Below are positions 13,829-42,875 of a stretch of 51,804 nucleotides of DNA, in pieces. The stretch spans positions 1 to 51,804 of the IMG/VR virus record IMGVR_UViG_3300034110_000722. One strand, given 5' to 3'. The notes under the pieces were generated by a model. That model had not been told where the DNA came from. It made no database searches and saw nothing but the letters and a program-made list of their open reading frames with translations. A program made the translations under genes and the position numbers. The DNA comes from a virus. Numbering within the stretch: the first letter of the stretch is position 1; each line of letters starts with the position of its first letter.

Positions 13829-14710
13829 ATGACTGCTTCACTCACTCTTACGGGATCGGTCGCCGCACTGACCGCCGCTCTTGCTGCTTTTGAGCGTGTC
13901 GATGGTGAGCCTGACGCTGGCTCTCGGACTGTCGCGCCGCTAACGCCTGCCAACAGCACGCTGTCGCAGGCGATCAGTTTCGCGGTTGCGGCTGACGCGG
14001 GAAACCCTTCCACCGACACTGGTGCTGGTATTCCGCAACAGATGCCGAGCCTGTCCGTTCCGAGTGGGGCTGCTCCGATCCCGACTGCCCCGATGCCGAG
14101 CATGTCGCCCGTCTCGACTACCATCCCTGCCATCCAGGATGGCGAGGATGATGAGGATGAAGCGGGTGCTGACACGGACGGCACCGGCACGGACGCTGAA
14201 GGTCTGCCGTGGGATGCGCGCATTCACTCGTCAAGCAAGAAAAAGACCGACAAGGGCTTGTGGGCTGCACGTCGCGGCGGGCCGAAGGGCGCGGAACTCG
14301 CGGTAATCAAGGACGAACTGCGCGGTGTGACGCAGGTGCCAATGCCGCTTCCGGTCGCACTCACACCTGTCCCGATGCCGCCGCCCGTGATTGAGCAGCC
14401 GGTCGCTGCACCGCTGCCGATGCCTGCTGTGATGCCGCCGCCCGTCCCGATGCCCGTTGCACCTGAGCCGGTCGCTGCACCGCTGCCTATGCCCACACCT
14501 GAGCCGGTCGCTGCACCCGCAGCAGCCGAAGAATGGGATTTCGCAAAGCTGATGGCACAGATCGGGCCGAAGATGGGCACCGTGATCGACCCGCAGTATC
14601 TGGCCCAGGTGTGCCAGCACTACGGCATTGGTGCGATCACCGACACTGCCACGAAGCCGGAACTGATCGGGCAGATCGTGGCGCAGTTCCAAGCGGATGG
14701 CCGCTGGTAA
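13829..14710 (+). CDS. Phage protein with Pro-rich linker and LPWD motif
   Basis: 293 residues with GGAG 9 bases before ATG. Residues 1-130 are Ala/Ser/Pro-rich with an acidic patch. GLPWDARIHSSSKKKTDKGL then WAARRG (about 130-153) is a short conserved motif found in many phage replication-region proteins. A long Pro/Met/Val repeat (MPxPV, EPVAAP) follows, then a compact helical C-terminus (KLMAQIGPKMG, VCQHYGIGAI). It lies at the head of the ssDNA-binding, nuclease and polymerase operon and may bind DNA or a replication partner. N-terminus MTASLTLTGSVAALTAALAA resembles leaders of other proteins here. Confidence 0.65.
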   Translation: MTASLTLTGSVAALTAALAAFERVDGEPDAGSRTVAPLTPANSTLSQAISFAVAADAGNPSTDTGAGIPQQMPSLSVPSGAAPIPTAPMPSMSPVSTTIPAIQDGEDDEDEAGADTDGTGTDAEGLPWDARIHSSSKKKTDKGLWAARRGGPKGAELAVIKDELRGVTQVPMPLPVALTPVPMPPPVIEQPVAAPLPMPAVMPPPVPMPVAPEPVAAPLPMPTPEPVAAPAAAEEWDFAKLMAQIGPKMGTVIDPQYLAQVCQHYGIGAITDTATKPELIGQIVAQFQADGRW

Positions 14711-14908
14711 ATCATAAGGTGAAACGTCGCGCGCCTGTTGCAACAGGTTCGGTCTGAGTAGCCTGAAGACACACGATAGGGGATCGGGCTGCGCGACACT
14801 GTGGCTTCTAACCCAACAAGAGATGTGGTCCGAGTTTCTTCGTGTGAGGTTGGCAGGGCGCGTGTCGATGACCCCTGCCAACCATCGGATGAGATGGAGT
14901 TTTACGGT
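14711..14908 (+). other. Structured gap inside the replication operon
   Basis: A rare long gap in a tightly packed operon. It holds a perfect 14-base palindrome CCTGTTGCAACAGG (14734-14747), a pairing GTCGCGC (14726-14732) with GCGCGAC (14791-14797) that closes a 72-base region, and a perfect 10-base stem GTTGGCAGGG / CCCTGCCAAC (14849-14858 / 14873-14882). The last hairpin has no T tract. A 29-codon frame from ATG 14823 ends in the next start (ATGA) and could be a leader peptide. Confidence 0.45.
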
Positions 14909-15088
14909 ATGAACATCACGATTGAATACATTGATGACGGGCGTATTCAGGTGGTATTGCATGACGTGCAACGGCAACTGATTTTCACACCCGATGTGTC
15001 GCTGGCAACGATCCGAGAAGCGATCATCGGTGAGTTGCTGCCGAACCTGACAGACGTGATGCTGCGCATCGCAGAGTCGCGCGCATGA
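14909..15088 (+). CDS. Small hypothetical protein (59 aa)
   Basis: Starts MNITIEYIDDGRIQVVLHDV; acidic beta then helical (SLATIREAIIGELLPNLTDV). ATG 14909 follows ATGGAG; an in-frame ATG at 14894 and a GTG at 14801 are alternatives that would translate the hairpin region. No family recognised. Overlaps the next gene by four bases. Confidence 0.5.
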   Translation: MNITIEYIDDGRIQVVLHDVQRQLIFTPDVSLATIREAIIGELLPNLTDVMLRIAESRA

Positions 15089-15297
15089 CAATCTTTCAAC
15101 ATCTGGACGGGGGTTTCTACGTCATCGCGGGGCAATACCCCGTCCAGATGAAGATGGATGATGGGCGGTGGGAACCTGCCGTCTATTACCGCCGCGTCAC
15201 CCGTTCAGTCGATGGGCGCTGGCAGTATGAAGGCAAGAACCACTTCTGCACGACGCAAGCGCGTTGGAATGAGCGGTTTACGAGGATTGAGGTATGA
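15085..15297 (+). CDS. Small hypothetical protein (70 aa)
   Basis: Compact beta-rich protein (MTIFQHLDGGFYVIAGQYPV then DDGRWEPAVYYRRV), loosely like DUF1653 proteins that bind a ligand on a beta barrel. Both ends overlap neighbours by four bases (ATGA). Function unknown. Confidence 0.5.
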   Translation: MTIFQHLDGGFYVIAGQYPVQMKMDDGRWEPAVYYRRVTRSVDGRWQYEGKNHFCTTQARWNERFTRIEV

Positions 15298-15497
15298 GTG
15301 AGAACAAGTCGTCTTCGAGTGGCGGTATCGGATTTTTCAGTCTGCTGACTATCGTGTTCATCACGCTCAAACTGACTGGCTACATCACGTGGTCATGGTG
15401 GTGGGTGCTCGCACCGCTTTGGCTTGTGCCAGTCGTCATCCTGTCCATTACTGCACTGGTGTTTCTGGTTGCGCTGCTGTTCGAGTCTCGCAAGTGA
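15294..15497 (+). CDS. Phage membrane protein, two TM segments (67 aa)
   Basis: After a Ser/Gly N-terminus it has two hydrophobic helices, GIGFFSLLTIVFITLKLTGY and a WSWWWVLAPLW-to-VFLVALLF segment. GIGF..LLT(I/V)VF..LKLTG and WSWWWVLAPLW are the signature of a small membrane protein family common in phages (named after fragile-X-F-associated proteins). Role in the infected cell is unknown. Confidence 0.72.
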   Translation: MSENKSSSSGGIGFFSLLTIVFITLKLTGYITWSWWWVLAPLWLVPVVILSITALVFLVALLFESRK

Positions 15498-16579
15498 TTA
15501 GCGTCACAGCTACAGAACTGCCGCGCGTGATGCATTGCTTCGGCTCGCTGCAAATGCCGCAGGCTGTGCCGGGTGGCGGTGACACCACACAGCGCGACGA
15601 GGGCAATGCTGCACACTGGCTGGCCGAGCAGATGTTCAACGGCGCACCTGCTCACGCCGGTCTGACCGCACCGAACGGCTATGTCGTCACAGACGATATG
15701 GTGGAGCATGTGTCGCAGTATGTCAGCGCGCTCGACTGCGGCGAGATGGAAGCCGACACCAGTTACAGCGGTGCATCGTGGCAGGTGCGCGGTCGGGCTG
15801 ATCATCTGGTGTATCGCACACATGATGTCCTCACTCACTTCTCCACCAGTCTCACCATCGACGACTTCAAGTATGGCTGGCGGCTCGTCTCACCCGTCCG
15901 TAACTGGACGTTGATGAGCCATGCTATCGGTTGGATCATCCGCACACAGCAGCGTCCTGACCGCATCGTGCTGCGCATCCATCAGCCGCGTCCGTATCAT
16001 GCAGATGGGCCGCTGCGCGAGTGGTCATGCTCGTTTGAGGAACTGATGGGCTTCTACGCTCAGATCGACGCTCGCCTGTCCAACCCGACAGACGAACTGG
16101 TGACGAGCATGGAGCACTGCGCCAAGTGTCACGCCCTCGCCACCTGTCCGGCTGCTCGCAGTGCCAGCATGAACGCGCTGGACGTGATGGATCGCGTGTT
16201 CAGTGACGACTTACCGAAGCCGCTGCTGACCCGCGAAATGGAACTGATGCGGCAGGCGGTCAGCATGATCGAGGCGCGTCGGGACGCTATCGAGGAACTG
16301 GTGACGCACCGCATCAAGCAGGGCGAAGTGTTCGACGGTTACATGCTTGAGCGTCGGCACGGCCAGCGGCGGTGGAAGCCAGGATTGACCGGTAAAGTGC
16401 TGTCGATGCTGGCTGCTAAGGATCTGTCGAAGGATGGCGCAGTCACACCAGCTGAAGCAGAGCGGCGCGGTGTGAGCAAGGAAGCAATTGCAGCAATGAC
16501 GGACAGGCCGCTGCTTGATCCGAAGTTGAAGGCAGTGGACGTTGATGCCCGTGGACGGGCTTTGTTTGGAGACCAATGA
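15494..16579 (+). CDS. DUF2800-type PD-(D/E)XK nuclease
   Basis: 361 residues from GTG overlapping the previous stop. WQVRGRADHLV (about 96-106) and LTIDDFKYGWR (about 120-130) give the RecB/Cas4-like D...D-x-K core. Cysteines in HCAKCHALATC (about 215) suggest the iron-sulfur or zinc knuckle common in the family. DUF2800 nucleases occur next to DUF2815 ssDNA-binding proteins, as here, and are thought to act in phage recombination or replication. Confidence 0.82.
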   Translation: MISVTATELPRVMHCFGSLQMPQAVPGGGDTTQRDEGNAAHWLAEQMFNGAPAHAGLTAPNGYVVTDDMVEHVSQYVSALDCGEMEADTSYSGASWQVRGRADHLVYRTHDVLTHFSTSLTIDDFKYGWRLVSPVRNWTLMSHAIGWIIRTQQRPDRIVLRIHQPRPYHADGPLREWSCSFEELMGFYAQIDARLSNPTDELVTSMEHCAKCHALATCPAARSASMNALDVMDRVFSDDLPKPLLTREMELMRQAVSMIEARRDAIEELVTHRIKQGEVFDGYMLERRHGQRRWKPGLTGKVLSMLAAKDLSKDGAVTPAEAERRGVSKEAIAAMTDRPLLDPKLKAVDVDARGRALFGDQ

Positions 16580-16580
16580 C

Positions 16581-17630
16581 ATGCGAATGACTACCCTAAC
16601 CCCTCTCACCGCCGTTGCCTATAACAACGAAGGCAGCGGTCTGCTCACCCCGACCGGACGCATCGTGTGGGGCCACCCGCTTAAGCCGCGTCAGAAGATC
16701 GACAACGAGACGAAGCAGAAGGTGCTCGACCAGCAGGGTCAGCCGGTCATGGAAACGTCCTACGGGCTGGCGATCCCCATCGCTGAGTTCCAGCAGCACG
16801 TGTGGCCGGTGATGCACGCTGAAGCACTGAAGGGTTATCCCAACGGCGCACCGGGCAACTTCTCGTGGAAGATGACGCAGCCGACCGACATCGACAACAA
16901 GGGTCAGCCCTACAGCATCCGCGAAGGCTATGCCGATCATGTCGTGATTGCTGTTTCGACGCTGCTTGAGCCGCCACCTGCTTTCCGGTGGGACGCTGGC
17001 CGCAACCAGTGGGTGCAGATGCAGCCTGACGAGATCAAGTGCGGCGACTACATCCGCGCTGATCTGAATTTCAAGGTGAACGTCTCGACCAGCGCGACCC
17101 GCAAGCCGTCGCTCTATGTCAACCCGCGCGCGGTGCAGTTCGTCGGCTATGGTGCAGCGATCGTCAGCGCTGGGTATAACGTCGATCCGAGCAGCTTGTT
17201 CGGCGCTGGCCCTGCACCGCTGCCGCCCGGTGCAAGCGCTGTGCCGATCGGCGGTGCGCCTGATGTGGGGATGCCCGGTGCTGCTGCTATGCCCGGTGCT
17301 GCTGCTATGCCCGGTGCTGCTGCTATGCCCGGTGCTGCTGCTATGCCGGGTGCTCCGGTGGCTGCGATGCCGGGTGCTGCTGCGATGCCGAACCCTGCCC
17401 CTGCGGTGTCACCACCTCCCGCGCCTGTGACGGCACCGCCTGCGGCTACTCGACCCACTGACCCGTCGCACATCCACAACAACGGCAACGGCACCGAGCA
17501 GTGGTTCGTGAACGGTGCTTGGGACGGTGGTGCTCACCCTGTCCCGACTGCCGGTGCTGCTCTGCCGCCGCCTGCGACCGGATTTGTCGCACAAGCGGCG
17601 GGTATGCCGGGTGCGATGCCCCCGCGATAA
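16581..17630 (+). CDS. DUF2815-like ssDNA-binding protein with repeat tail
   Basis: 349 residues. Residues 20-205 follow the DUF2815 OB-fold pattern (GRIVWGHPLKPR, SWKMTQPTDIDNKGQPYSIR, IKCGDYIRADLNFKV, PRAVQFVGYG). After about residue 210 comes a Gly/Ala/Pro tail with four perfect MPGAAA repeats, then THIHNN-like and aromatic segments (QWFVNGAWDGG). The long flexible tail may recruit partner proteins, as acidic tails do in other SSBs, but it is not acidic. Leader MRMTTLTPLTAVAYNN resembles those of several virion proteins. Confidence 0.75.
   Translation: MRMTTLTPLTAVAYNNEGSGLLTPTGRIVWGHPLKPRQKIDNETKQKVLDQQGQPVMETSYGLAIPIAEFQQHVWPVMHAEALKGYPNGAPGNFSWKMTQPTDIDNKGQPYSIREGYADHVVIAVSTLLEPPPAFRWDAGRNQWVQMQPDEIKCGDYIRADLNFKVNVSTSATRKPSLYVNPRAVQFVGYGAAIVSAGYNVDPSSLFGAGPAPLPPGASAVPIGGAPDVGMPGAAAMPGAAAMPGAAAMPGAAAMPGAPVAAMPGAAAMPNPAPAVSPPPAPVTAPPAATRPTDPSHIHNNGNGTEQWFVNGAWDGGAHPVPTAGAALPPPATGFVAQAAGMPGAMPPR
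17271..17342 (+). repeat. 18-bp tandem repeat in ssDNA-binding protein gene
   Basis: Four identical in-frame units ATGCCCGGTGCTGCTGCT encode MPGAAA. Decayed copies continue to about 17393. Identity at wobble positions points to recent slippage expansion; copy number may vary between isolates. Confidence 0.9.
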
Positions 17631-17727
17631 CAGGGGAGTGTGTGGGCGCTGCGGTGCGGATTTGCTGAGAGGTGATCCGTGCCGCGCGCCTAGCCCGCTC
17701 CCGTTCGACGACTGCATTCCCTTTTGA
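17611..17727 (+). CDS. Putative zinc-knuckle peptide (38 aa)
   Basis: A frame from GTG 17611, overlapping the end of the SSB gene, encodes VRCPRDNRGVCGRCGADLLR and ends DDCIPF. Cys at 3, 11 and 14 and two later Cys could bind zinc. It fills the gap to the next gene. The start has only a weak ribosome site, so this is uncertain. Confidence 0.4.
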   Translation: MRCPRDNRGVCGRCGADLLRGDPCRAPSPLPFDDCIPF

Positions 17728-17736
17728 GGTGGTGAG

Positions 17737-18087
17737 ATGAAAGAGCATAGTGAAATGGTGACGGCGCTGGTCAAGTCTGGCTCGCTGATCGTCCAGCAGA
17801 TGACACCTGAGAAAGCGGACGCATGGCACGCTGCCACAGGTGTCGCAGGTGAAGCGGGCGAATTGCTTGATGCGGTGAAGAAACACGCGATCTACAACAA
17901 GCCGCTCGACCGCGAAAACGTGATCGAAGAACTCGGTGATCTTGAGTTCTACATGGAGCAGTTGCGCCAGAATATCGGTGTGACCCGCGAAGAAACGCTG
18001 GTTCACAACATGGGCAAGCTGGCAGTCCGCTACAACGAGCTTCGTTACTCCGATCAGGCTGCACAGGCTCGCGCCGATAAGCAGTGA
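17737..18087 (+). CDS. MazG-like NTP pyrophosphohydrolase
   Basis: 116 residues, ATG after GAGGTGGTGAG. GVAGEAGELLDAVKKHAIY and NVIEELGDLEFYMEQLRQN give the ExxE...ExxD metal-binding helices of all-alpha NTP pyrophosphatases. Phage MazG proteins hydrolyse dNTPs or ppGpp-like alarmones to steer host metabolism; the substrate here is unknown. Confidence 0.82.
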   Translation: MKEHSEMVTALVKSGSLIVQQMTPEKADAWHAATGVAGEAGELLDAVKKHAIYNKPLDRENVIEELGDLEFYMEQLRQNIGVTREETLVHNMGKLAVRYNELRYSDQAAQARADKQ

Positions 18088-18248
18088 CCCACAAGACCCA
18101 ATGCCACAACCTAGCAGTGTGTCTCGACTGCGGCGCTCGATGCAATGCGACAAACGCCCGTCCGTGGGCGCATCATCACGCGCGGCATCACAGACACACT
18201 GTTGAACTGCAACTCGGATGGGAGATACGACCGTGCAATCCCGCATAG
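18084..18248 (+). CDS. His/Cys-rich small protein (54 aa)
   Basis: From GTG overlapping the MazG stop (GTGA). Contains CHNLAVCLDCGARC and the basic His cluster ARPWAHHHARHHRHTVELQL. Four closely spaced Cys and seven His suggest metal binding. No family recognised. It overlaps the next gene by 16 bases. Confidence 0.55.
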   Translation: MTHKTQCHNLAVCLDCGARCNATNARPWAHHHARHHRHTVELQLGWEIRPCNPA

Positions 18249-18619
18249 ACAGCTTCATGGAAGCGTTGGTGAATGTCGCCATCGGCTTCGGGATCAACTT
18301 CCTCGCCAACTGGCTCATACTGCCGTGGTATTTCGGGATTGAGCCTGATCTCGGCAGTTTCGCGCTGCTCGGTGTGATCTACACCTTCATCAGCATTGCG
18401 CGGTCTTATGTGATTCGCCGCGCTTTCAACGGACAGACGGTGTGGGAAGCGTTGAGCGGGCGGGTGCGCCCCAGACGGGATGCAGCACATGAAGCGGCGT
18501 ATCAGCGTGGCCTGCTGGACGGGCGAGAATATGTCGCACCTGAAGTCAGGGCACCATATGATCCGGTGTCGCAGAAAACCCTGTTTGAAGCGTGGATGGA
18601 CGGGGTGGACGACGCATGA
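18233..18619 (+). CDS. DUF7220-like membrane protein
   Basis: 128 residues from GTG 18233, which has GGGAG well spaced upstream; ATG 18218 is an alternative. The opening QSRIDSFMEALVNVAIGFGI then NFLANWLILPWYFG is the pattern of a small phage family with two membrane segments (QSR..S..E...N...G). The C-terminal 60 residues are soluble (QRGLLDGREYVAPEV). Function unknown. Confidence 0.65.
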   Translation: MQSRIDSFMEALVNVAIGFGINFLANWLILPWYFGIEPDLGSFALLGVIYTFISIARSYVIRRAFNGQTVWEALSGRVRPRRDAAHEAAYQRGLLDGREYVAPEVRAPYDPVSQKTLFEAWMDGVDDA

Positions 18620-18846
18620 CTGACGCACCCCCTCGCGCGCTGGACTGCGATGCCTATGTGCGGCTTGCTTGCCGTCCGATCATCGTCACGCTGAACGGTA
18701 TGCAGCAGCGATATGTTGCAGCCTATAACGTCGATGAAGGCTGGATCGAGCGTTACATCACGGACGAGCGCGGCAACCTGTCGATTTATGAAGACGAGTA
18801 TCGGAGTGAGATTGTTCGCGGTATTGTGATGGTGTTTTGGGGATGA
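18616..18846 (+). CDS. Hypothetical phage protein (76 aa)
   Basis: Starts MTDAPPRALDCDAYVRLACR; the core VTLNGMQQRYVAAYNVDEGW resembles a beta-rich small phage family (ligand-like NGxxxxxVxxxD..G). It overlaps both neighbours by four bases. The HNH endonuclease follows directly. Confidence 0.5.
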   Translation: MTDAPPRALDCDAYVRLACRPIIVTLNGMQQRYVAAYNVDEGWIERYITDERGNLSIYEDEYRSEIVRGIVMVFWG

Positions 18847-19385
18847 GTGTTACCACCGATCATATACTGGATGACATGATGGGTTGCGCTCGATGTGATC
18901 GAATGCTTCCGTCCGCTTGGTTTCAGGCGCGCTCCGATACAGGTCGCAAGCGAACTGTTTGCCACGAGTGCCGAATAAATCAGATCAGTCAATGGCAGAC
19001 TGTAAACCGCGAACAAACACGAACGAATCAGCGTCGTTATAATCGCACGTTTCGCGGGCGAGCCATAATTCTCTTCAACGCCGCAAAAGCGAGAGCAAAA
19101 CAACGCAGTGAAGATTTCAGACTAGAATTACATCATGTGATTGAAATGCTTTCTGTCGGAGTATGTCAACGAACTGGTGTAGAGTTTGAATACGAAAACA
19201 CCGTAGGAGGCACGCAATCGCCTTACGCTCCGTCGCTTGATAGAATTGACAGAAACGGCATATATGAACCGGGTAACGTGCAGATAGTGTGCTTTTGGTA
19301 TAATGCTGCGAAACAACAGTGGCCTGAACACATCACCATTGAACTGTGCAAAAGCGTAGCGAGGAAACACAGTGATAGCGATTGA
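18843..19385 (+). CDS. Free-standing HNH homing-type endonuclease (copy 3)
   Basis: 180 residues from ATG overlapping the stop before it. Zinc finger GCARCDRM...CHECR, basic helix, then HNH core PSLDRIDRNGIYEPGNVQIV and CFWYNAAKQQ. Same architecture as copies at 4133 and 11389, but on the opposite strand. Its end overlaps the DNA polymerase start by 14 bases, exactly as copy 1 overlaps the primase. The gene and the first 350 bases of the polymerase are A/T-rich. Confidence 0.88.
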   Translation: MSVTTDHILDDMMGCARCDRMLPSAWFQARSDTGRKRTVCHECRINQISQWQTVNREQTRTNQRRYNRTFRGRAIILFNAAKARAKQRSEDFRLELHHVIEMLSVGVCQRTGVEFEYENTVGGTQSPYAPSLDRIDRNGIYEPGNVQIVCFWYNAAKQQWPEHITIELCKSVARKHSDSD

Positions 19386-21399
19386 CAACGCTCAAGTTTG
19401 GGACTGCGAGTGTCTCCCTAACGTGTTTACGTTGTGCGCCACACCGTTGAACGGTGAGAGTTATAGTGTATGGGAGATCAGCGAGTTCCGCGACGATCGC
19501 GCTCAACTCATGCAATGGTTTAACTGGTTGAATCAAAATCAGATACCCATGATTGGATTTAATTCAATCAGCTATGATTATACACTAGCACACCTGCTGT
19601 TCACGCAGCCGAATGCGACATACCAGCAGTTGCACGCCAAGTCGCAGCAGATCATTCAGAATGGTTATGGCGACAACCGATGGGCACACATGATATGGGC
19701 TAGGGATCGTTTCGCTCCGCAAATTGATCTCATGTTGCTGCATCACTTCGATAACCGCGCCAAGACGACCAGCCTGAAGGCGTTGCAATTCGCCATGCGC
19801 TCGCAGTCCATCGTTGAGTCGGCCCTGCCGTTTGATCGGGCTGTCACCGCCGATGAGATTGAACAAGACCTGATCCCCTACAACAAGCATGACGTGCAGG
19901 AGACGAAGCAGTTCGCGCTGCACTCGCTTGACGCGATCCAGTTCCGCATCGGGCTGATCGACCAGTTCGGAATCGACTGCCTCTCGTGGAATGACACCAA
20001 GATTGGTGAAAAGATGCTGGAACAGCGTCTCGGTGACGATGTGTGCTACGACTGGTCGAGTGGCCGCAAGCAGCGCCGTCAGACCGTCCGCACGTCCGTC
20101 GCTCTGCGGGACATCATCTTCCCCTACGTCCGCTTCGAGCACCCTGAGTTTCAGCGGGTGCATCGCTTCATGCTTGACCAGGTGCTCACCCCTGACGAAC
20201 TGGACGGGCCTGAGAGCACGGCTATCCGCACCAAGGGTGTGTTCACCGACCTGAGCGCCGATGTGGGCGGGCTGACGTTCCACTTCGGCACGGGCGGCGT
20301 TCACGCCAGCGTTGAAGCACAGCGGTTCCATGCGACCGATGAATGGCTCATCAGGGACATCGACGTTGCGTCCTTGTATCCCTCGCTGGCGATCGTCAAC
20401 CGGCTCGCCCCGGCGCATCTCGGACAGGCGTTCGTTGCCGAGTATGCGAAGATCCCGGCAGAGCGCAAAGAGCACGCCAAGGGGACCTATATGAACGCGG
20501 CGCTGAAGCTGGCTGCGAATGGCGCATGGGGTAAGTCCAACAGCGCCTACAGCTGCTTCTATGACCCGGCCTACGCCATGACGATCCCGGTGAACGGACA
20601 GCTTCTGATCTGCATGTTGGTTGAGTGGCTATTGGCTGTGCCGACGCTTTCGCTCATCCAAGCGAACACGGACGGTGTGACGTATCGCATTCACCGCGAT
20701 CACTTGGAACAAGCGAAACAGATTGAGCAAGCATGGCAGGATTACACGTTGCTAGTGCTTGAAGATGCCGCATACTCAGATATGTGGATACGCGACGTGA
20801 ATAACTATGTCGCACGCGATACAGCGGGCAAACTGAAGCAGAAGGGAGCCTACTGGCACCCCGATCCGCTGGACTACGCAGGTAGCATCAGCACTGCATC
20901 ACCGCCCTCGTGGCACAAAGACCACAGCAATATCGTTAGCGTGCGAGCAGCAGTCCTAGCGATGGTGCATGGTGTCGATCCGGCAGACATTATCCGCGCT
21001 CATACCGATCCCTTCGATTTCATGCTCAGGTGTAAAGTGGGCCGCAGTGACCAGTTGATGCACGGTGATGCACAGGTGCAGCGGGTGTTTCGCTACTACG
21101 TCGCTCGCAACGGTGCGCCGCTCGTCAAGGTGTCGCCACCTGTATCGGGTGGTGTGGTCGGGCAATGGAAGCGGGCGAACGGTGTGACCAAAGCCGAGTA
21201 TGAGCGCGTGATGCGCGAGACTGGTGGCGAGTGGGACGGTCGGGTTTGCACGCAGAACCGGAGCAAATATGAGCAGCGCCGCACAACCGTCGAGAGTGGC
21301 TGGCTTGTCGCAGACTGCTGCGATGCTTCACAGTTCGATTGGAGCAACGTGAATTATGATTACTACATCGCTGAAGCTAGGAAGTTGGTGATACAGTAG
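19372..21399 (+). CDS. Family B DNA polymerase with 3'-5' exonuclease
   Basis: 675 residues from GTG. Exonuclease: WDCEC (D11, E13), GFNSISYDY (N64...D69), PYNKHDV (Y170, D174). Polymerase: motif A DVASLYPS (about 331-338), motif B KLAANGAWG (about 379-387, consensus Kx3NxxYG), motif C QANTDGV (about 431-437), where the usual D-T-D is N-T-D but the second, essential Asp is kept. No terminal-protein insertions are obvious. This is the replicative polymerase. Its 3' end overlaps the convergent kinase gene by 23 bases. Confidence 0.88.
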   Translation: MIAIDNAQVWDCECLPNVFTLCATPLNGESYSVWEISEFRDDRAQLMQWFNWLNQNQIPMIGFNSISYDYTLAHLLFTQPNATYQQLHAKSQQIIQNGYGDNRWAHMIWARDRFAPQIDLMLLHHFDNRAKTTSLKALQFAMRSQSIVESALPFDRAVTADEIEQDLIPYNKHDVQETKQFALHSLDAIQFRIGLIDQFGIDCLSWNDTKIGEKMLEQRLGDDVCYDWSSGRKQRRQTVRTSVALRDIIFPYVRFEHPEFQRVHRFMLDQVLTPDELDGPESTAIRTKGVFTDLSADVGGLTFHFGTGGVHASVEAQRFHATDEWLIRDIDVASLYPSLAIVNRLAPAHLGQAFVAEYAKIPAERKEHAKGTYMNAALKLAANGAWGKSNSAYSCFYDPAYAMTIPVNGQLLICMLVEWLLAVPTLSLIQANTDGVTYRIHRDHLEQAKQIEQAWQDYTLLVLEDAAYSDMWIRDVNNYVARDTAGKLKQKGAYWHPDPLDYAGSISTASPPSWHKDHSNIVSVRAAVLAMVHGVDPADIIRAHTDPFDFMLRCKVGRSDQLMHGDAQVQRVFRYYVARNGAPLVKVSPPVSGGVVGQWKRANGVTKAEYERVMRETGGEWDGRVCTQNRSKYEQRRTTVESGWLVADCCDASQFDWSNVNYDYYIAEARKLVIQ

Positions 21400-33977: not shown

Positions 33978-34033
33978 CCCGTCGAATTTCTTCCAAGGGG
34001 TGTCATACCGTGCGTAAGTGGTGATTGCGTCGA

Positions 34034-34447: not shown

Positions 34448-34459
34448 GTGTTGCTCCTG

Positions 34460-34696: not shown

Positions 34697-34712
34697 GCGG
34701 TTGCTCCAAAGC

Positions 34713-34743
34713 AAAAGGGTGCCGACACACTGCGCCGACACCC
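34713..34743 (-). terminator. Terminator after tail tube gene
   Basis: On the minus strand GGGTGTCGG pairs with TCGGCACCC (two wobble pairs, 9-base loop), then TTTTG. A second hairpin GTGGT/ACCAC lies just upstream. They would lower transcription past the abundant tail tube gene. Confidence 0.6.
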
Positions 34744-34795
34744 TCAAACTGTCAAGGTGGTAAGTGGTCAGAGACCACCACCCGTGCCTGAGCGA

Positions 34796-35326
34796 TCAGA
34801 GACCGCTGACCGGATCGACCTTGATCTGCTTCTGAACCAGACCCAGCGTGAAGATTTCGAGGTCGAAGTCCTCGTTGCGACCGTTCGGCTCGCGCGGGCC
34901 TGCCACCAGACCGCGATTGTAGCGGATGGTCGGCTTGCTGTCGGGGTCGGCGTCAGGCTTGTCCGTGCCCTCGATCTTGAAAGCGTAGTAGAAGTTCGTT
35001 TGAGCAGCAGCGCGCAGAATGTCTTGACCTGCATCGGACGGATCGCGGGCGACTTCGATTTCCGGCGAGCCAGCGTCGGTCAGACCCTTCGCCTTCTGAA
35101 TGACCGCATCATCCCACGTGTCATAGTTCAGAATGTTGGTGTTATCGCCGGTCTCACCGACATTACCGACACCACCGACGAGCACCCAAGTCAGGGCTGC
35201 ATAAGCAGATGCGTTCAGATCAGTTGGTTGCGGGGTGGCGCAGACATACAGTTTGCTGCCAGCGTTGGTGTTGAAATAAGCTGCGGCGACCAGTGCGGTC
35301 GTCTTGGCGAGGACGGTGTTCTTCAT
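34796..35326 (-). CDS. Major tail (tube) protein
   Basis: 176 residues. Position before the chaperone pair, size, a beta-rich body (DPSDAGQDILRAAAQTNFYY, PNGRNEDFDLEIFTLG) and the following terminator fit a tail tube protein. Opens with MKNTVLAKTTALVAAAYFNT, a leader type shared with coat, scaffold, portal and SSB. Confidence 0.68.
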   Translation of the reverse strand: MKNTVLAKTTALVAAAYFNTNAGSKLYVCATPQPTDLNASAYAALTWVLVGGVGNVGETGDNTNILNYDTWDDAVIQKAKGLTDAGSPEIEVARDPSDAGQDILRAAAQTNFYYAFKIEGTDKPDADPDSKPTIRYNRGLVAGPREPNGRNEDFDLEIFTLGLVQKQIKVDPVSGL

Positions 35327-35760: not shown

Positions 35761-36197
35761 CCTACGTCGTCGCTCACTTTCTTGCTCGCCAGATCGACAT
35801 ACTTTTGCCAGTTTTGCACGGGTATGTCCACGAAACCATCGTAGGTGTTTCGAGCCGCCGCATACGCAGCAGTCCAACCGAAGAAAAACGTGTCACCGAG
35901 TTTCAGGTCCATGATGACAGCAGCGAGTGGATAACCGTCGAAGTCATCGTAGATGCCTGTGTATTGCCCGACTGGCGCATCTGTTGGGCGCTGACTTTCA
36001 CCGGACGGCATTGATCCGATTGCGCCGCGACCTGAAGCCCTGAGAAAGCCTGTATCGACGCGCATCCGCCCACCCTTTGCTGTCGGGGTTTGCATGTCGT
36101 TCACCATGTCGAGAGCGGCAGTCTGGACAACTGCGAGCATTCGCTGCTCGGTCTCTTTGACCCAAGCGTTCATCGTGGCGCTGAAACTCTGGGTCAT
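35757..36197 (-). CDS. HK97 gp10-like head-tail joining protein
   Basis: 146 residues with MNAWVKETEQRMLAVVQTAA helix, RMRVDTGFLRASG (the conserved DTGxLRxS turn of gp10-like proteins), and TAAYAAARNTYDGFV. It probably forms part of the neck. ATGA overlap with both neighbours. Confidence 0.7.
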   Translation of the reverse strand: MTQSFSATMNAWVKETEQRMLAVVQTAALDMVNDMQTPTAKGGRMRVDTGFLRASGRGAIGSMPSGESQRPTDAPVGQYTGIYDDFDGYPLAAVIMDLKLGDTFFFGWTAAYAAARNTYDGFVDIPVQNWQKYVDLASKKVSDDVG

Positions 36198-37216: not shown

Positions 37217-37581
37217 CAGCGCCGCACAATCACAGTCCAAGACACCGAATCACCCGCAGCAGGGCGCGGCATCACCACGTTGATCTTGTGATCCACACCG
37301 TCGATGCGAATGAAGTGACCTAACACCGGAGTGGGTGATACACCGTCGTTCGGAATGCTCAACTGCTTGTCCGTGCGAACGACACTGGTGCCATCGACAT
37401 ATTTCGTGCTGACGGGACGTGCCGTCGAATTGATCGTGACAGGCGTGCCTTTGACGGGTGCAGCAGGTGCATCAGGGCGTGAACCAGCGGGTACAGTGAG
37501 CGGCACGTAGCGCACGTCACCTTGCTTGAACTCAGCGTGCAGTTCGGACGACACCTGACGAAGATCATCGTAAATCGACAT
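37216..37581 (-). CDS. Head-completion/neck protein
   Basis: 121 residues, MSIYDDLRQVSSELHAEFKQ then a beta-rich body (VLGHFIRIDGVDHKINVVMP). Size and place after the connector suggest a stopper or neck protein. Family not certain. Confidence 0.5.
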   Translation of the reverse strand: MSIYDDLRQVSSELHAEFKQGDVRYVPLTVPAGSRPDAPAAPVKGTPVTINSTARPVSTKYVDGTSVVRTDKQLSIPNDGVSPTPVLGHFIRIDGVDHKINVVMPRPAAGDSVSWTVIVRR

Positions 37582-37641
37582 TTAAACTTGACCACCCTGT
37601 AAGTTATGCTAACAACGCTGCGTCAACACAGGAGACACACA

Positions 37642-38019
37642 GTGACCACAACCAAGAAAGCCGCTGCACCCGCAGCGACCACCGCCAAGGTTGAACCGAT
37701 CGTTGCAACGGGCGATCTCGACATCACCCTGCCGCCCAAGCCGACGCGCGCTGGCAACGGCAAGGGCAAGTATCCCTTCGACACCCTCGAAGTCGGCAAG
37801 TTCTTCAGCGTGAAGAACAAGACGCGCCGTGACCTCTACACCGCAGTCAACAACGCGAACAAGCGCTACCGCAAGGAACTTCCGGCAACCCCCGGCAATC
37901 CGCCGCAGGTGATTGTTGAGCGCGAGTTCTACGCGGTCGATGTGGATGCTGCAACGGCTGAAGCGCTCAAGGGATCGGCGCATGAAGGCGCGACCGTCCT
38001 GATCATTCGCAGCAAGTAG
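37642..38019 (+). CDS. DUF7303-like protein, antisense insert in late operon
   Basis: 125 residues from GTG with ACAGGAGAC before it. Lys/Ala/Pro-rich start (TTTKKAAAPAATTAKVEP), then YPFDTLEVGKFFSVKNKTRR and DLYTAVNNANKRYRKE. The P-F-x-x-L-x-V-G-x-x-F-x-V pattern is a small phage family linked to DNA binding. It is the only rightward gene inside the leftward structural operon and has its own strong terminator, like a moron. Confidence 0.65.
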   Translation: MTTTKKAAAPAATTAKVEPIVATGDLDITLPPKPTRAGNGKGKYPFDTLEVGKFFSVKNKTRRDLYTAVNNANKRYRKELPATPGNPPQVIVEREFYAVDVDAATAEALKGSAHEGATVLIIRSK

Positions 38020-38047
38020 CCCCCCTCCCACTGCTTGCTGTGGATAG

Positions 38048-38085
38048 CCCCCGCGCTCGCTTCGGCTGATGCGCGGGGGTTTTTT
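38048..38085 (+). terminator. Strong rho-independent terminator
   Basis: CCCCCGCGC pairs perfectly with GCGCGGGGG across a 14-base loop, followed by six T. It ends the antisense gene just before the stop of the convergent connector gene. Confidence 0.9.
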
Positions 38086-38582
38086 CATGCGCGCACCACA
38101 CCGCTGCTGATTGAGGACACACCGCCGTTGCCTTCAAGCAGTGGTGCGAGGATCTGACCGATGACCGGAAACTGCACCTGCACCTGCTCGGCACTCAGAG
38201 ACAGGTATTCGGCGCTCACCGACCCTTCGATGCTGACGCGCTTGTAGCGGTTGGGGGTGTAATCGGACTGAAGCACTGTCTCGTCCTGCAAGTGTCGCAG
38301 GGCTGCTTCGTATGTGGCGTTCTCGATCTCGGTCGGGACGGTGGTTGCATCGACCGGATAACCTTCACGATCCTGCACCCAGCTGCGCGGCCAGTCGCGG
38401 GTCTGCTGCTGCCGGTTCCCGACCTTGTAGCCAGGCCAGCGATAACCGAACGCACCGTCGAGCCATTCGGACGCGACGAGCAGCGCCACAGTCACGTCAT
38501 CGGTGTGATGCTGCGTCGTGTGGCGACCACGAGCAAGGTGATACGCTTGGAAGCCTGCTGCGGTGCCGTAGAAGTCGCTCAT
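38085..38582 (-). CDS. DnaT-like head-tail connector
   Basis: 165 residues. MSDFYGTAAGFQAYHLARGR, ALLVASEWLDGAFGYRWPGY, then WPRSWVQDREGYPVD and VPTEIENATYEAALRHL match the gp6-like adaptor family annotated as DnaT-like. It binds beneath the portal. Its terminal residues overlap the T tract of the antisense terminator. Confidence 0.7.
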   Translation of the reverse strand: MSDFYGTAAGFQAYHLARGRHTTQHHTDDVTVALLVASEWLDGAFGYRWPGYKVGNRQQQTRDWPRSWVQDREGYPVDATTVPTEIENATYEAALRHLQDETVLQSDYTPNRYKRVSIEGSVSAEYLSLSAEQVQVQFPVIGQILAPLLEGNGGVSSISSGVVRA

Positions 38583-38599
38583 GTCACTCTCACGCTGAA

Positions 38600-38621
38600 G
38601 GGCGGCAGTTGCCCACCGCCC
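38600..38621 (-). other. Hairpin between connector and small head gene
   Basis: GGGCGG (38600-38605) pairs with CCGCCC (38616-38621) across a 10-base loop in the 51-base gap. No T tract on either side. May stabilise or process late mRNA. Confidence 0.35.
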
Positions 38622-38633
38622 TCATATCATGCG

Positions 38634-38990
38634 TCAGCCCTGCGGCGCAATGGCAGCGAGAGCAGCGGTCGCTTCGGCTTCGGTGCCGTAGCCAGTGTCA
38701 GCGATGCCGAGTGCCGCAGCCGCTTCACCTTCGACCTTCTGACCCATCAGGTCAGCGATGAAGAACTTGCGGCCCTGCTTCATCACGATCAGTTGCGCGG
38801 GCTGCTGCGGTTCGGTGGTGACAGTGGGTTCGAGCACAGTTTCATCGGTGCTCGGCTCGTCAGCCAGTTCCATCGTTTCAGGGTCGAAATCCGACTCGTT
38901 GATGCGGACATGCGTGCCGTCACGGACGATGGTGACGGTTGGCAGAATGCCGTGCGAATATGCGACAGCGATCAAGGGAATGAGTTTCAT
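38634..38990 (-). CDS. Small head-associated protein (118 aa)
   Basis: Starts MKLIPLIAVAYSHGILPTVT, acidic centre, and a C-terminal QGRKFFIADLMGQKVEGEAA with Ala-rich helix. Encoded right after the coat gene and its terminator, where decoration or head-fibre proteins often lie. Leader resembles those of portal and coat. Function unknown. Confidence 0.5.
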   Translation of the reverse strand: MKLIPLIAVAYSHGILPTVTIVRDGTHVRINESDFDPETMELADEPSTDETVLEPTVTTEPQQPAQLIVMKQGRKFFIADLMGQKVEGEAAAALGIADTGYGTEAEATAALAAIAPQG

Positions 38991-39030
38991 GTCAGGTTCC
39001 TCGTTGAATGAGATGTAAACCTTACCACAA

Positions 39031-39067
39031 TGAAAACGGCCCCGCCACCCGTAAGTAGCGAGGCCGT
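39031..39067 (-). terminator. Terminator after coat gene
   Basis: Minus strand ACGGCCTCGC pairs with GCGGGGCCGT (one wobble) around a 12-base loop and is followed by TTTTC. It would end most of the abundant coat transcript. Confidence 0.75.
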
Positions 39068-39086
39068 CTCTCGGTGCAACCCGGAT

Positions 39087-40328
39087 TTAGCCGAGCAGGA
39101 GCGAAATATGCTCCGTTTTCGATGCGTGAGTCCCCCACGCCAGACCGATCTCACCGTACATCATACGATAGCCGGGATACACAGCGAACTCGAAGGTGAG
39201 GCCGCTGCGCGGATCAGTCACGGTCGTCACGTCGATCGCCAGATCACCCTGAACCGGGCGAGCAGGCGGGCGGGCGGCGAGGTGCAGCGCATCCATCGAG
39301 AAGCCGACACCAGCGACATTGTAGCTGGCCGTGCGGGTGATCGCAGTCGTCGAAGCGGGGATCGCCTGACGAAGACCCGGAGCAGCGAGGACGATGGTGC
39401 CTCCACCCGACACGTCCGCGTCACCCGACACGAGCAGGTAACGATTGGCATCACCAGCGAACGACACCACGTCACCAGCGACGAACGTGCCGGTGCCTGC
39501 CGAAGCGAGCGTGATGGTGGTCGCGCCGACAGCGTAGCCGGCGTTGTTCGTGGTTGCGCTGGTTGCGGTGCCTGCGGTGTGCGAGCGAGCCTGACCGGTT
39601 TCCTTGACCGAGAAGCCGAAGATGTCGAGCAGTTCGCCCTGACGCAGCGTCATCTGATCGCCAGCTTCGTTCACGCGGGTCAGGTTCTTCACCGAACGCA
39701 GGTTCGCACCGGCGCTGGTGTTGAGGACCATCGAACGACCGGTCATCGGCGCACCGTTGTCGTCAAGGATCTTGCGAACCTGAGCGACATCGTTGAGGTG
39801 ATCGACACTGGTGCCAAACGGGGTGGTGCCAGCGGTGCCCCATGCACGCGATGCAGCGATGCGAGCAGTGGTCGCCAGATCACCTTCGACCTCGTTGGTG
39901 AGGGTGCGAAGCGCCTGAGCGATGATCATCGCCTGAGCCGACTGGTAGTTCGGGCCAGAACCAGCATTCAGAGCGCGCTGTTCTTCACCGACGAAGTTGA
40001 ACTTCGCAGCACGTGCCTTGGTGATGGTCATGGTGCCGGTGTCGAACACGTTGTCGTTGTTCGAGGGCGGGGTCATCGCGGGAACGATGTCGCTCGCGGT
40101 CTGCGGCGGTGCGATCGGATAGGTGACGGTCTGGCCGACAGCAGCAGCTTCGACACCAGGCGCACGCATCACGGACGGAATATAACCGACGAGTTCGCGC
40201 GACACCACGTCCATTGCGGTGTAGATGTCACCGAGGATTTCGGTCAGTGTGTTGGCGTATGCGTAGGCGGACAGGTTGCCGATCATCGGCGCAGTGCGCG
40301 CACGCAGAATGTTCTTCATGTTGGACAT
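39087..40328 (-). CDS. Major capsid (coat) protein, P22 coat-like
   Basis: 413 residues; ATG 40328 follows GAGGCTCGTC. ANTLTEILGDIYTAMDVVSR with VGYIPSVMR, EEQRALNAGSGPNYQ, NEVEGDLATTARIAASRAWG and QVRKILDDNGAP fit P22 coat-like HK97-fold subunits. A beta insertion (about 255-330) is rich in Thr/Gly. It has its own promoter, structured leader and terminator. N-terminal KNILRARTAPMIGNLSAYAY resembles other phage leaders. Confidence 0.82.
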   Translation of the reverse strand: MSNMKNILRARTAPMIGNLSAYAYANTLTEILGDIYTAMDVVSRELVGYIPSVMRAPGVEAAAVGQTVTYPIAPPQTASDIVPAMTPPSNNDNVFDTGTMTITKARAAKFNFVGEEQRALNAGSGPNYQSAQAMIIAQALRTLTNEVEGDLATTARIAASRAWGTAGTTPFGTSVDHLNDVAQVRKILDDNGAPMTGRSMVLNTSAGANLRSVKNLTRVNEAGDQMTLRQGELLDIFGFSVKETGQARSHTAGTATSATTNNAGYAVGATTITLASAGTGTFVAGDVVSFAGDANRYLLVSGDADVSGGGTIVLAAPGLRQAIPASTTAITRTASYNVAGVGFSMDALHLAARPPARPVQGDLAIDVTTVTDPRSGLTFEFAVYPGYRMMYGEIGLAWGTHASKTEHISLLLG

Positions 40329-40362
40329 GACGAGCCTCATGGTTGGAGATTTGGGGTTTTCG

Positions 40363-40418
40363 GCCCGTTCATCTCGAACTGCGGCTCAGTGCCCGATCAT
40401 CACGATCTGCGGCTGAGT
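40363..40418 (-). other. Tandem 28-nt hairpin repeat in coat mRNA leader
   Basis: Two adjacent 28-base units (40363-40390 and 40391-40418) differ at four sites. In the small hairpin the changes are compensatory: GTTC...GAAC in one unit, GATC...GATC in the other, each with a 5-base loop. The region is the 5' leader of the coat mRNA. It could act in stability or translation control. Confidence 0.6.
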
Positions 40419-40422
40419 GTGA

Positions 40423-40451
40423 GTGATATGCTATGTTGCGGCGGGTGTCAA
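40423..40451 (-). promoter_or_regulatory. Coat gene promoter
   Basis: Perfect TTGACA (40451-40446), 17-base spacer, TATCAC (40428-40423). Start point about 40416, giving an 88-base leader. Same -10 and spacing as the promoter at 13771. Confidence 0.78.
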
Positions 40452-40469
40452 ACCGGTAACACCCGCCGC
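40438..40469. other. 11-bp perfect hairpin overlapping the coat promoter
   Basis: GCGGCGGGTGT and ACACCCGCCGC form a perfect 11-base stem with a 10-base loop, eight bases after the scaffold stop. No T tract follows. The coat -35 box lies in the hairpin, so transcription and promoter use may interfere. Confidence 0.6.
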
Positions 40470-40476
40470 ACGCAAA

Positions 40477-41289
40477 TTAGTCAACGACCTTCAGTTCACC
40501 CTTGGCGACCTTCTGACCGATGCTCGCCTTTTCCATCGGCCCCAGCTTGTCATAGTCGGCGCGCTTCATCACGTTGCCGCCGCCACGATTGCCACCTGCG
40601 CCGCCCGAACCGCTGCCGCTTGCGGTGGGTGCGCGCAGCAGTTGATCCTTGTCCTGGCGCTCGCTGATGAACATCTCAAATGCTTCATCGACCGAAGCGA
40701 TCTCGCCGCGCGAGTTGTAGATCACATCACCGTTCGGACGCACCGGCACAAGCTGACCGTCTTCGATCTTGAAGCGATCGCTGTATGCAGCAGTGACGAA
40801 ATCCTGCGGCACAGCCAGTCGCTCACTGAGGAACTTGCTGCTGGTGAACGCATTCTTGCGTAGCAGGTTGTCGCGGTCGCGCTCGATCTGCGTCAGCTTC
40901 TCGTCGCGTTCCTTCAGTTGCGTTTCATACTGCGAGGTGATCGACTGCTTGATCTTGTCGATTTCACCCTTCTCGACCATCTTACTCAGGTCGAGATCCT
41001 TGGTCTTCTCGATTGCATCACGCGCTGCATCAGGGTCGAGATCACCGAACTTGGCGAGTTTGTCCTGTGCTTCCTTGGCAGCGCGCCGATGTGCGGCACT
41101 CTCGCTGTTGATGCGCTGGATGTAACCACCCGCGATTGCGGTTTCCTTGCCGCTGTCGTCGAGCATGATCGGGTTACCGGATGCGTCAGTGACGAGGTTG
41201 CCGCTGTCGTCGGTCTTCCAGCCTGCCTTGTTGTCGTAGGCGAGCGCGGTGAGTGCCGTGGTGAGGCTCAGGACGGTGAGACGCTTCAT
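40477..41289 (-). CDS. Scaffolding protein (DUF6651-like)
   Basis: 270 residues. Helical, strongly charged (AKFGDLDPDAARDAIEKTKD, KERDEKLTQIERDRDNLLRK), then KFLSERLAVPQDFVTAAYSD, a Gly-rich linker and basic tail. Place before the coat gene and composition fit a scaffold. Start MKRLTVLSLTTALTALAYDN; GAGGAAACACC precedes ATG. Confidence 0.75.
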   Translation of the reverse strand: MKRLTVLSLTTALTALAYDNKAGWKTDDSGNLVTDASGNPIMLDDSGKETAIAGGYIQRINSESAAHRRAAKEAQDKLAKFGDLDPDAARDAIEKTKDLDLSKMVEKGEIDKIKQSITSQYETQLKERDEKLTQIERDRDNLLRKNAFTSSKFLSERLAVPQDFVTAAYSDRFKIEDGQLVPVRPNGDVIYNSRGEIASVDEAFEMFISERQDKDQLLRAPTASGSGSGGAGGNRGGGNVMKRADYDKLGPMEKASIGQKVAKGELKVVD

Positions 41290-41317
41290 GGTGTTTCCTC
41301 TGGTTGGTTCTGAGCGA

Positions 41318-41346
41318 TACTTACCGCATGGATAGCATGGGTGCAA
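41318..41346 (-). promoter_or_regulatory. Scaffold gene promoter
   Basis: TTGCAC (41346-41341), 17-base spacer, TAAGTA (41323-41318). The 14-mer ATGCGGTAAGTATC around the -10 is identical to one before the operon at 13721. Start point about 28 bases before ATG. Confidence 0.6.
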
Positions 41347-41357
41347 GCCCTGTCGGA

Positions 41358-42875
41358 CTATGCCAACGGCTCCACGTCCTCACCCGTCCCCGGCGTATCA
41401 GCCAGCAGCCGGATGCGCTCACGCTCCATCGTGAAGTTGCTGGACAGGATGCCGCGCCGCTTCAGTTCCTCGCAATACGTCTCGTGGCTGATGTCGCCGC
41501 GAGTGCGGGCACTGTCCAGTGCGCCGAGGTCTTCGCCTTCCATCCAGTCGTCGAACTCTGCAAAGACGTGAACGGTCGGGTCATAGTCGATACCCATCCA
41601 CTTTGAGGTCAGCAGCAGCGCGTTCTCAAGCGCGTTGGACAGCATCAGCGCCCACGCCTTCACCGCGCTCTTGGCCTTCCCAGCTGCGACTGCTGCTGTG
41701 ATGACCGTGATGTTGCTGCTTGACGCGGTGAGCGGCTGACGGCCCAACTCGCGCAACCGGCGCTCGGTTGCTTCAATGCGCGCTTCGAGGAACTTGAGCG
41801 ACTCCGAACCAGGCTCGACATATGCCCAATTCCCCGCAGGTCCACCATCGTCGCGCGGCGGCGACCACAGCACGCGGTTCGGGCCGACAGCGATCTTGGT
41901 CTGCGGCTTCCCGTCGCGTCCGTTCGGCGGCTTGATCCCGTTCGCAGCGAGCATCGGGTATGCAGTCAACTGGCTCGCGTGCTCAAGCCCTGTCTCCTGC
42001 CGGAACATTTGGATCTGCAACTCGACGGCAGCACGCATGGGCGGCACGAAGCGCCACTGACGGCCCTCGCGCCGCCCCGTGACGAACGGAACAAGCGGAA
42101 TCTCACCGATGCTGATCTCACCACTGTCGAGCAGGAAGTATTCCTTCTGCTTCGTGGTGTCGTTGACAGCTTTCTGCCAGAGTTGCCATGTGACACCGAG
42201 ATCAGTCCGCTCAAAGATGCGGACATGATCGGGATCACCCGGCTCGAAAATCTTGATGTAGGTCAGCACTTCGTCGCTGCCGATCATTTTGCTGCGCACG
42301 TCAAGGACGTTGCGAGCCAGAATGTGCGTCCAGTACGGGCGCAGACCCTGAGCGCGTGCTTCAGCGATGGTCAGTGGTCGATCCGCTTCGACCTTGCTGT
42401 AATCGACCATGATCCAGTCGATTGCGTGATTGATCCCGTTGAAGAACACCTGCGATGCGAAGACGGTCAGGTTGCTACCCGACCCATCCACATTGTAGCA
42501 GAAATCCTCAATCTCGTCGGGGATACCGTCATCTTCGGTGTCTTCGGTTGCGTCGGTCTGATCGCTGACGAGTTGAACAGGCTGCTCGAACGGCTTGCCT
42601 GCAAGCGATTCCGCAATGTCCGAATACACGTTCGTCATCACCGCACAGGACGAGCGAAATTTGTAGTCTTCTGCTTCCTCGTCACGGAACTTCGGCAGGA
42701 ACTCGTCGAAGTGCATTTTCATGCCTTCGATGCCGTCGAGCACCGCATCCACCTTTTCGTGGTATCGGAACATGAACGCGCTGTCGGTCGAGCGCTTCTC
42801 CATCACATCGACAGCAACGCCGCCGCTGGGTGGTGCGGACGCATAGGCTGCGGCGGTGAGCGGACGGAGTTTCAT
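41358..42875 (-). CDS. Portal protein (DUF4055-like)
   Basis: 505 residues from ATG 42875. The chain DEFLPKFRDEEAEDYKFRSS, SLAGKPFEQPVQLVSD, ISIGEIPLVPFVTGRREGRQ, ELQIQMFRQETGLEHASQLT and FLEARIEATERRLRELGRQP follows DUF4055-type portals. It forms the DNA-entry ring. Start MKLRPLTAAAYASAPPS is one of the shared leaders. 35-base gap to the terminase. Confidence 0.78.
   Translation of the reverse strand: MKLRPLTAAAYASAPPSGGVAVDVMEKRSTDSAFMFRYHEKVDAVLDGIEGMKMHFDEFLPKFRDEEAEDYKFRSSCAVMTNVYSDIAESLAGKPFEQPVQLVSDQTDATEDTEDDGIPDEIEDFCYNVDGSGSNLTVFASQVFFNGINHAIDWIMVDYSKVEADRPLTIAEARAQGLRPYWTHILARNVLDVRSKMIGSDEVLTYIKIFEPGDPDHVRIFERTDLGVTWQLWQKAVNDTTKQKEYFLLDSGEISIGEIPLVPFVTGRREGRQWRFVPPMRAAVELQIQMFRQETGLEHASQLTAYPMLAANGIKPPNGRDGKPQTKIAVGPNRVLWSPPRDDGGPAGNWAYVEPGSESLKFLEARIEATERRLRELGRQPLTASSSNITVITAAVAAGKAKSAVKAWALMLSNALENALLLTSKWMGIDYDPTVHVFAEFDDWMEGEDLGALDSARTRGDISHETYCEELKRRGILSSNFTMERERIRLLADTPGTGEDVEPLA

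Follow-up and report, generated by a model that had tools for sequence, protein, structure and literature searches.

A shared N-terminal leader on virion proteins of a siphophage group, and a C39-like peptidase as its candidate recogniser

Coat-protein propeptides occur in tailed phages, for example on T4 gp23, and T4 also has a capsid targeting tag that is cut by the gp21 protease; the cleavage motif of the T4 prohead protease is of the L-x-E type. Among T-even internal proteins just a conserved N-terminal tag is kept, according to excerpts of the study concerned (PMC3012670). C39 peptidase domains, as described in parts of two further papers, excise leaders that are held via a helix in a hydrophobic groove, and they accept varied cargo (PMC6363468, PMC10318531). 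Here we describe a short N-terminal leader on otherwise unrelated proteins encoded by the IMG/VR virus record IMGVR_UViG_3300034110_000722, analysed at its full length of 51,804 bases (the window, in whose numbering all strands and coordinates are given), together with a cysteine peptidase homologue from the same DNA as the candidate enzyme for its removal. At the DNA level, megablast found no match for 20 kb of the window among cultured phages.

A first-pass annotation had proposed that the portal, scaffold, coat, tail tube, a 118-residue head-region protein and the single-stranded-DNA-binding protein (SSB) start alike, with a basic residue, a Leu/Thr stretch and then A-x-A-Y, and that the protein starting at 13829 is a weak seventh member. 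All six leader peptides are present in open frames of the window with the sequences given there (Table 1); profile matches gave a name to every carrier except the 118-residue protein. The 13829 protein was rejected, its relatives starting with MKFSLTITGS, MKFTLTITEA or MKAVLTLEGS, which is the ordinary start of that family and has no A-x-A-Y end. Two of the starts are uncertain: the coat may start nine bases upstream (MSNMKN..., start 40328), with the MSN extension conserved in relatives, and the portal possibly at a GTG at 42914 that overlaps the terminase stop. Whichever start applies, both leaders remain within the protein.

Table 1. Leaders and related genes of the window
Feature	Leader	Position	Strand	Gene	Family
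Portal leader	MKLRPLTAAAY	42843..42875	(-)	41358-42875	phrog_145 portal
Scaffold leader	MKRLTVLSLTTALTALAY	41236..41289	(-)	40477-41289	phrog_206 head scaffolding, phrog_784
P22-like coat leader	MKNILRARTAPMIGNLSAYAY	40257..40319	(-)	39087-40319	phrog_283 major head protein, P22_CoatProtein
118-residue head-region protein leader	MKLIPLIAVAY	38958..38990	(-)	38634-38990	
Tail tube leader	MKNTVLAKTTALVAAAY	35276..35326	(-)	34796-35326	phrog_158 major tail protein
gp2.5-like SSB leader	MRMTTLTPLTAVAY	16581..16622	(+)	16581-17630	phrog_7011
Stand-alone C39/papain-like cysteine peptidase homologue, 138 residues, candidate leader peptidase		12691..13107	(-)		phrog_5845 unknown function
DUF7303 protein, leaderless in the window		37606..38019	(+)		
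13829 protein, judged to be without leader		13829..14710	(+)		phrog_11133

When the motif was defined strictly, as an early K/R without D/E followed by small-x-[A/G]-Y, it was matched by 6 of the 86 genes called in the window; 2000 shuffles gave 0.65 matches on average and never more than 4. A looser form was present in 80 of 1312 called genes over 25 genomes, against an average of 12.6 and a maximum of 22 in 100 shuffles, and in internal stretches of the 25 genomes it was met at 9/804, 6/606 and 5/468. The gene calls came from a simple script, which overlooked a number of real genes, among them the peptidase of G001 and G030 (genomes are designated by handles of this kind). Short N-terminal motifs are easily over-read, and the leaders could in principle reflect chance likeness or misplaced starts. 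Given the shuffle counts, the presence of leaders on several gene families of distant relatives, the ribosome-site-like sequences upstream and the leaderless homologues that start at the junction, we regard this as scarcely credible.

Relatives of the window were gathered from IMG/VR by portal, coat, tube and SSB searches. Portal, scaffold, coat, the 118-residue protein and the tube keep a leader of the same kind in these relatives, with varying sequence and length. A motif search in related phages had been suggested by the first-pass annotation as a check, with absence counting against the leader; close relatives do carry the motif on the same genes. The accompanying statement that homologues start differently holds for leaderless relatives (coat MANTLT..., tube MANTNAASK...) but not for close relatives, in which the leader is common. 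Two cultured Rhizobium phages, P106B and X2_24, have five leaders each (portal, scaffold, coat, tube and DUF7303 protein), and their SSB and 118-residue protein homologue are leaderless. The SSB leader was found only in the window, G001 and G021, and not in P106B, X2_24 or G002, and the DUF7303 protein is leadered in P106B, X2_24, G021, G022, G023, G025, G027, G030, G034 and G041. The DUF7303 gene runs opposite to the head genes, and many relatives have a leader on its product, but the group of the window does not.

Tubes without leader were found in prophage relatives in Phyllobacterium, Kaistia, Chelativorans, Mesorhizobium, Aminobacter and other alphaproteobacteria. Because these leaderless prophage relatives (L192-L200) sit mostly in Hyphomicrobiales genomes, leaders seem to go with the lytic phages of this group. 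The known hosts of the group point to alphaproteobacteria. Contrary to this host pattern, one leadered relative (L189:9046-9525) lies on a contig binned as Glaciecola; a peptidase match was seen in the same genome, on contig number C70.

To describe the leader, 117 examples from 30 phages were curated by hand, the end of each being set by hand at the last aromatic residue or His before the mature start. This collection omits the tube leaders of G007, G014, G019 and G020, which had no second carrier for the permutation test described below, and the leadered coats of G012, G013, G015, G022, G025, G027, G030, G033, G041, P106B and X2_24. The leaders are 8 to 32 residues long and have a common form, namely Lys/Arg, then a Leu/Ala/Thr stretch that is nearly free of acids, and finally [A/G]-[Y/F/H]-x-[N/S]. 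A basic residue stands within positions 2-5 in 109 of the 117, reminiscent of the basic n-region of Sec signal peptides, and D or E is present in seven (for comparison, the first 17 residues are D/E-free in 501 of 2900 called genes). The anchor residue is F in 65 leaders, Y in 46 and H in 6. It is preceded by A (87), G (19), V (7), P (3) or S (1), hence by A or G in 106/117, and the second residue past it is N in 74 and S in 18 cases, together 92/117.

When coat and tube proteins were aligned, the anchor aromatic fell on the column of the start Met of the leaderless homologues. Leaderless scaffolds begin MKTWKTD or MSWKLD, so that in this protein the N following the anchor is part of the extension. 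In a model of the tube protein, leader residues 1-19 had a predicted local distance difference test score (pLDDT) below 50, i.e. they are predicted to be disordered. Judged by these alignments, the leaders extend otherwise ordinary virion proteins, and SSB, of this siphophage group at the N-terminus; as read from the sequences, they form one degenerate module that replaces the start Met of the leaderless homologues and co-varies within each phage. The window tube has 176 residues, while that of P106B, X2_24 and several relatives has about 263, with an extra C-terminal part. The SSB contains a repeated PGAAAM stretch.

Like the T4 capsid targeting sequence, the leader is one short N-terminal tag common to otherwise different phage proteins. 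The T4 tags, however, are on proteins packed into the head, whereas the leader is also on coat, portal, scaffold, tail tube, SSB and DUF7303 protein; the scarcity of D/E speaks against an acid-based cleavage motif, and the enzyme proposed for the leader would be a cysteine peptidase of papain-like type. With coat propeptides such as that of T4 gp23 the leader shares its position as an N-terminal extension on a coat protein, but here one type of extension is found on six or seven unrelated proteins, tail tube and SSB included.

Co-variation within phages was measured in a permutation test with five families (coat being outside the main test) and 119 within-phage pairs, using the last 8 leader residues and BLOSUM units. 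The within- minus between-phage similarity was 9.57, against 0.22 +/- 0.58 in permutations, and after thinning of close relatives it was 10.3 against 0.17 +/- 0.66. Interior stretches of the same proteins gave -0.1 +/- 0.5 and a GC-binned permutation (GC, guanine plus cytosine) gave 2.5 +/- 0.7, and GC content was rejected on these two values as the source of the likeness. The residue preceding the anchor was identical in 0.84 of the within-phage pairs and in 0.52 between phages. Thus in G021 a G stands before the aromatic on tube, scaffold, portal, the 118-residue homologue, DUF7303 protein and coat, though not on SSB, and G002 shows the same G in its tube, scaffold, portal and coat leaders. 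PVAF recurs in G023 on the portal, the scaffold and the DUF7303 protein, G024 has ALHALAH on the portal and ALHAVAF on the scaffold, and G033 has a His anchor on tube and scaffold.

Where leaders of one phage have the same residue, the codon was also shared at a frequency of 0.388, the expected value being 0.336 (n = 742, not independent). A mobile cassette or recent copying of the DNA would bring this value near 1, and both were rejected on this ground; the proposal of the first-pass annotation that selection acts on the peptide stands. In 14 close-relative leader pairs there were 77 nonsynonymous and 35 synonymous codon differences with the pattern kept. Within-phage likeness of the peptides with little sharing of codons suggests that the peptide is recognised in trans, DNA copying being no explanation, and such a likeness would be expected if each phage had its own version of a common recogniser. 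The leader peptide is probably recognised in trans by one phage-wide factor, for which the permutation and codon values make a good case.

The same data bear on the suggestion that what is shared is an expression module at the gene start, one that boosts translation of abundant proteins, the peptide being a by-product. Most carriers (coat, scaffold, tube, SSB) are indeed expected to be abundant, and Shine-Dalgarno-like sequences precede many leader starts. But the peptides are shared within a phage with codons hardly beyond usage, the conserved end of the leader (small-x-[A/G]-aromatic-x-N) can be as far as some 30 codons downstream of the first, the portal is leadered as well, and the differences between close relatives are mainly nonsynonymous. 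An expression module was rejected as the principal explanation on the codon test and the location of the conserved end, and we consider it very unlikely. Of the two alternatives offered by the first-pass annotation, a sorting or processing tag and a start-site expression module, the former is therefore the favoured class.

To find the recogniser, 15 leadered genomes (14 of at least 47 kb, plus G041) were compared with leaderless relatives by six-frame profile search, for 38 families that were each present in at least 7 leadered genomes. Twenty-three of the 38 were found in all 15 leadered genomes. Two leaderless close relatives, G004 and G039, share replication and packaging genes with the leadered phages; 22 of the 23 universal families were found in G004 and 21 in G039, and no family except the C39-like one was lacking in both. 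When 13 leaderless genomes were searched with the C39-like profile, the sole match was in Me-ZS1, a distant phage. Apart from some insertions, the leadered genomes keep the gene order 201-residue gene, C39-like gene, helicase, VRR-NUC and helix-turn-helix gene. G004 and G039 have no C39-like gene at this place: the 201-residue gene and the helicase are adjacent in G039, and in G004 there is just a frame of 70 residues between them. Two genomes found through the peptidase were leadered, G044 on coat, scaffold and tube, and G045 on coat and scaffold with a leaderless tube. A TetR-like protein (8150-8449) equalled the peptidase when judged by clustering and was rejected as recogniser when the profile search found it in G004 and G039.

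The Cys and His of the candidate peptidase are conserved in 22/22 homologues, including those of leaderless phages, and the third catalytic residue, which precedes a Pro, is D or N in 22/22. Its model, with a mean pLDDT of 81.5, gave Z scores of 8.6 with PeiR, 8.4 with the leader-peptidase domain of ComA, 8.3 with PCAT1 and 7.5 with a double-Gly protease with bound leader (structure comparison, VIA-align). With Foldseek alone there was no match to the model at E <= 0.001, staphopain ranking first. A search of solved structures by sequence with the peptidase profile gave nothing credible. Since neither Pfam (7 homologues, the C39 profile PF03412 included) nor NCBIfam (4 homologues) gave a match, the candidate is not assigned as a C39 member. 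From the structural model it resembles C39 and may work like one.

In common with the C39 peptidases ComA, PCAT1 and LahT150, the candidate has Cys-His-Asp(/Asn) and, as modelled, probably a small papain-like fold. C39 leaders, as far as described in part of one paper, resemble the present ones in their hydrophobic side chains and, if the present leaders are cut, in the small residue near the cut and the tolerance of cargo beyond it (PMC6363468). Differences are that the candidate homologues are short stand-alone frames without an ABC transporter, that the cargo consists of virion proteins and that the C39 profile of Pfam did not match by sequence. The hydrophobic register of the LahT leader (Val-4, Leu-7, Leu-12) was tried on the present leaders without a clean match, their peaks being at -5 and -12.

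From the sequences, then, these may be removable leaders on abundant and mostly self-assembling proteins, cut by a leader-peptidase-like enzyme of the phage itself, a reading that we hold to be evenly balanced between true and false. The phage-wide factor that would recognise the leaders in trans would be the phage's own C39/papain-like cysteine peptidase, to which the genome comparison points with moderate force. It would cut at the conserved aromatic or directly next to it, in [A/G]-[Y/F]-x-[N/S], and would leave an N-terminus like that of the leaderless homologues. More speculatively, the leader might keep coat, scaffold, portal and tail tube inactive until removal, or mark new copies for assembly. 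In its widest form the proposal would be that the lytic tailed phages of a whole group share a phage-specific leader on coat, scaffold, portal, tail tube and some nucleic-acid proteins, that a dedicated stand-alone C39-like cysteine peptidase frees these proteins, and that head and tail assembly thereby come under one proteolytic switch in which leader and enzyme co-evolve, following the logic of bacteriocin leaders; this we offer tentatively, with slightly more doubt than belief.

Several points weigh against removal by this peptidase. We infer cleavage of the leader from the junction alone, and the leader lacks the double-Gly motif of C39, having A/G at -1 and an open -2. Homologues of the peptidase turned up in 17 phage records, among them P106B, where the gene is P106B_57, and X2_24. 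Since homologues are also present in unrelated phages that lack the leader set, the peptidase is not sufficient for leaders; the number of loose motif matches per genome was 2.3 for 7 unrelated peptidase-bearing genomes, as compared with 5.6 for 16 leadered genomes and 1.2 for 11 leaderless relatives. G041 was at first classed as leaderless by its tube, and counted in that way it would be one exception to the peptidase link; the starts of its DUF7303, coat and scaffold genes led to its move to the leadered genomes. No peptidase match was found in six leadered fragments (20-38 kb), which is uninformative, yet lends no support. Finally, G004 and G039 may represent one loss event, in which case the peptidase link may depend on a single change. 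In the terS tree both lie inside the leadered group, together with leadered G031, G015, G009 and G033, and are sisters (93/88), as they are weakly in the exo tree (77/93). The portal tree places G004 inside the leadered group, and in the coat tree, which is poorly resolved, the two are apart. As these trees read, leader and peptidase may have been lost in one or two events, loss being the presumed direction.

A further point is that the DUF7303 family (14/15 leadered genomes) is likewise absent from G004 and G039, the sole other family in at least 14 leadered genomes of which this is true. The recogniser could accordingly be another factor, such as the DUF7303 protein, itself leadered in many phages, or a host protein, with an accidental peptidase correlation, and the presence of the peptidase family in leaderless phages would agree with this. 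DUF7303 was, on the other hand, not found in leadered G002, and the protein behaves as a carrier and matches no enzyme family. We judge recognition by such a factor to be quite unlikely.

The leader could also be an unremoved tag that brings nascent proteins to the inner membrane (Sec/signal recognition particle-like), to a phage assembly site or to a chaperone. Its composition resembles that of a targeting signal such as a Sec signal peptide, with a K/R start, a hydrophobic middle, few acids and often small residues at -3 and -1 relative to the aromatic. A mean hydropathy of 2.0 over 8 residues is reached by 65/117 leaders and by all eight E. coli signal peptides that were compared; many tube and scaffold leaders would pass as Sec signals by this measure, and the tube leaders of G014, G026 and G028 resemble textbook signal peptides. 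Yet this value is reached by only 1/6 window, 2/16 portal, 8/19 coat and 0/3 SSB leaders, and many leaders are too short or too polar for Sec. Pro stands at -3 in 22/117, and the conserved aromatic is often followed by D, E, F, M or N, so neither cleavage reading fits signal peptidase I. The conserved aromatic itself and the N beyond it also set the leaders apart from Sec signals. The cargo is presumably cytoplasmic, a DNA phage would have little reason to export coat and SSB, and an unremoved tag predicts neither the replacement of the start Met nor the peptidase correlation. We consider such a tag unlikely, though it is the chief alternative to removal.

If removal by the phage's own peptidase is true, one protease acting on one leader code would gate head and tail assembly, a control point undescribed for tailed phages in the papers searched. 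Literature searches on P106B and Rigallicvirus, on capsid or tail-tube signal peptides, and on C39 or papain-like enzymes in capsid or prohead assembly (including PMC5463345) brought up no such leaders, a statement confined to these searches. A function would be assigned to phrog_5845, now 'unknown', and the start and product annotation of portal, coat, scaffold and tube would be corrected in a large and mostly uncultured group. Owing to the within-phage co-variation, the phages provide natural matched pairs of leader and enzyme on which specificity could be mapped directly, and the two cultured leadered phages make the proposal testable at once.

Some other features of the window were noted. 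The TetR-like helix-turn-helix protein ends the helicase/VRR-NUC block and is present in all 15 leadered genomes. HNH- and GIY-YIG-like frames adjoin the primase (4133-5112) and are possible homing endonucleases, as far as the sequence tells. At 47681-48148 there is a frame built from AARSAQ-type tandem repeats.

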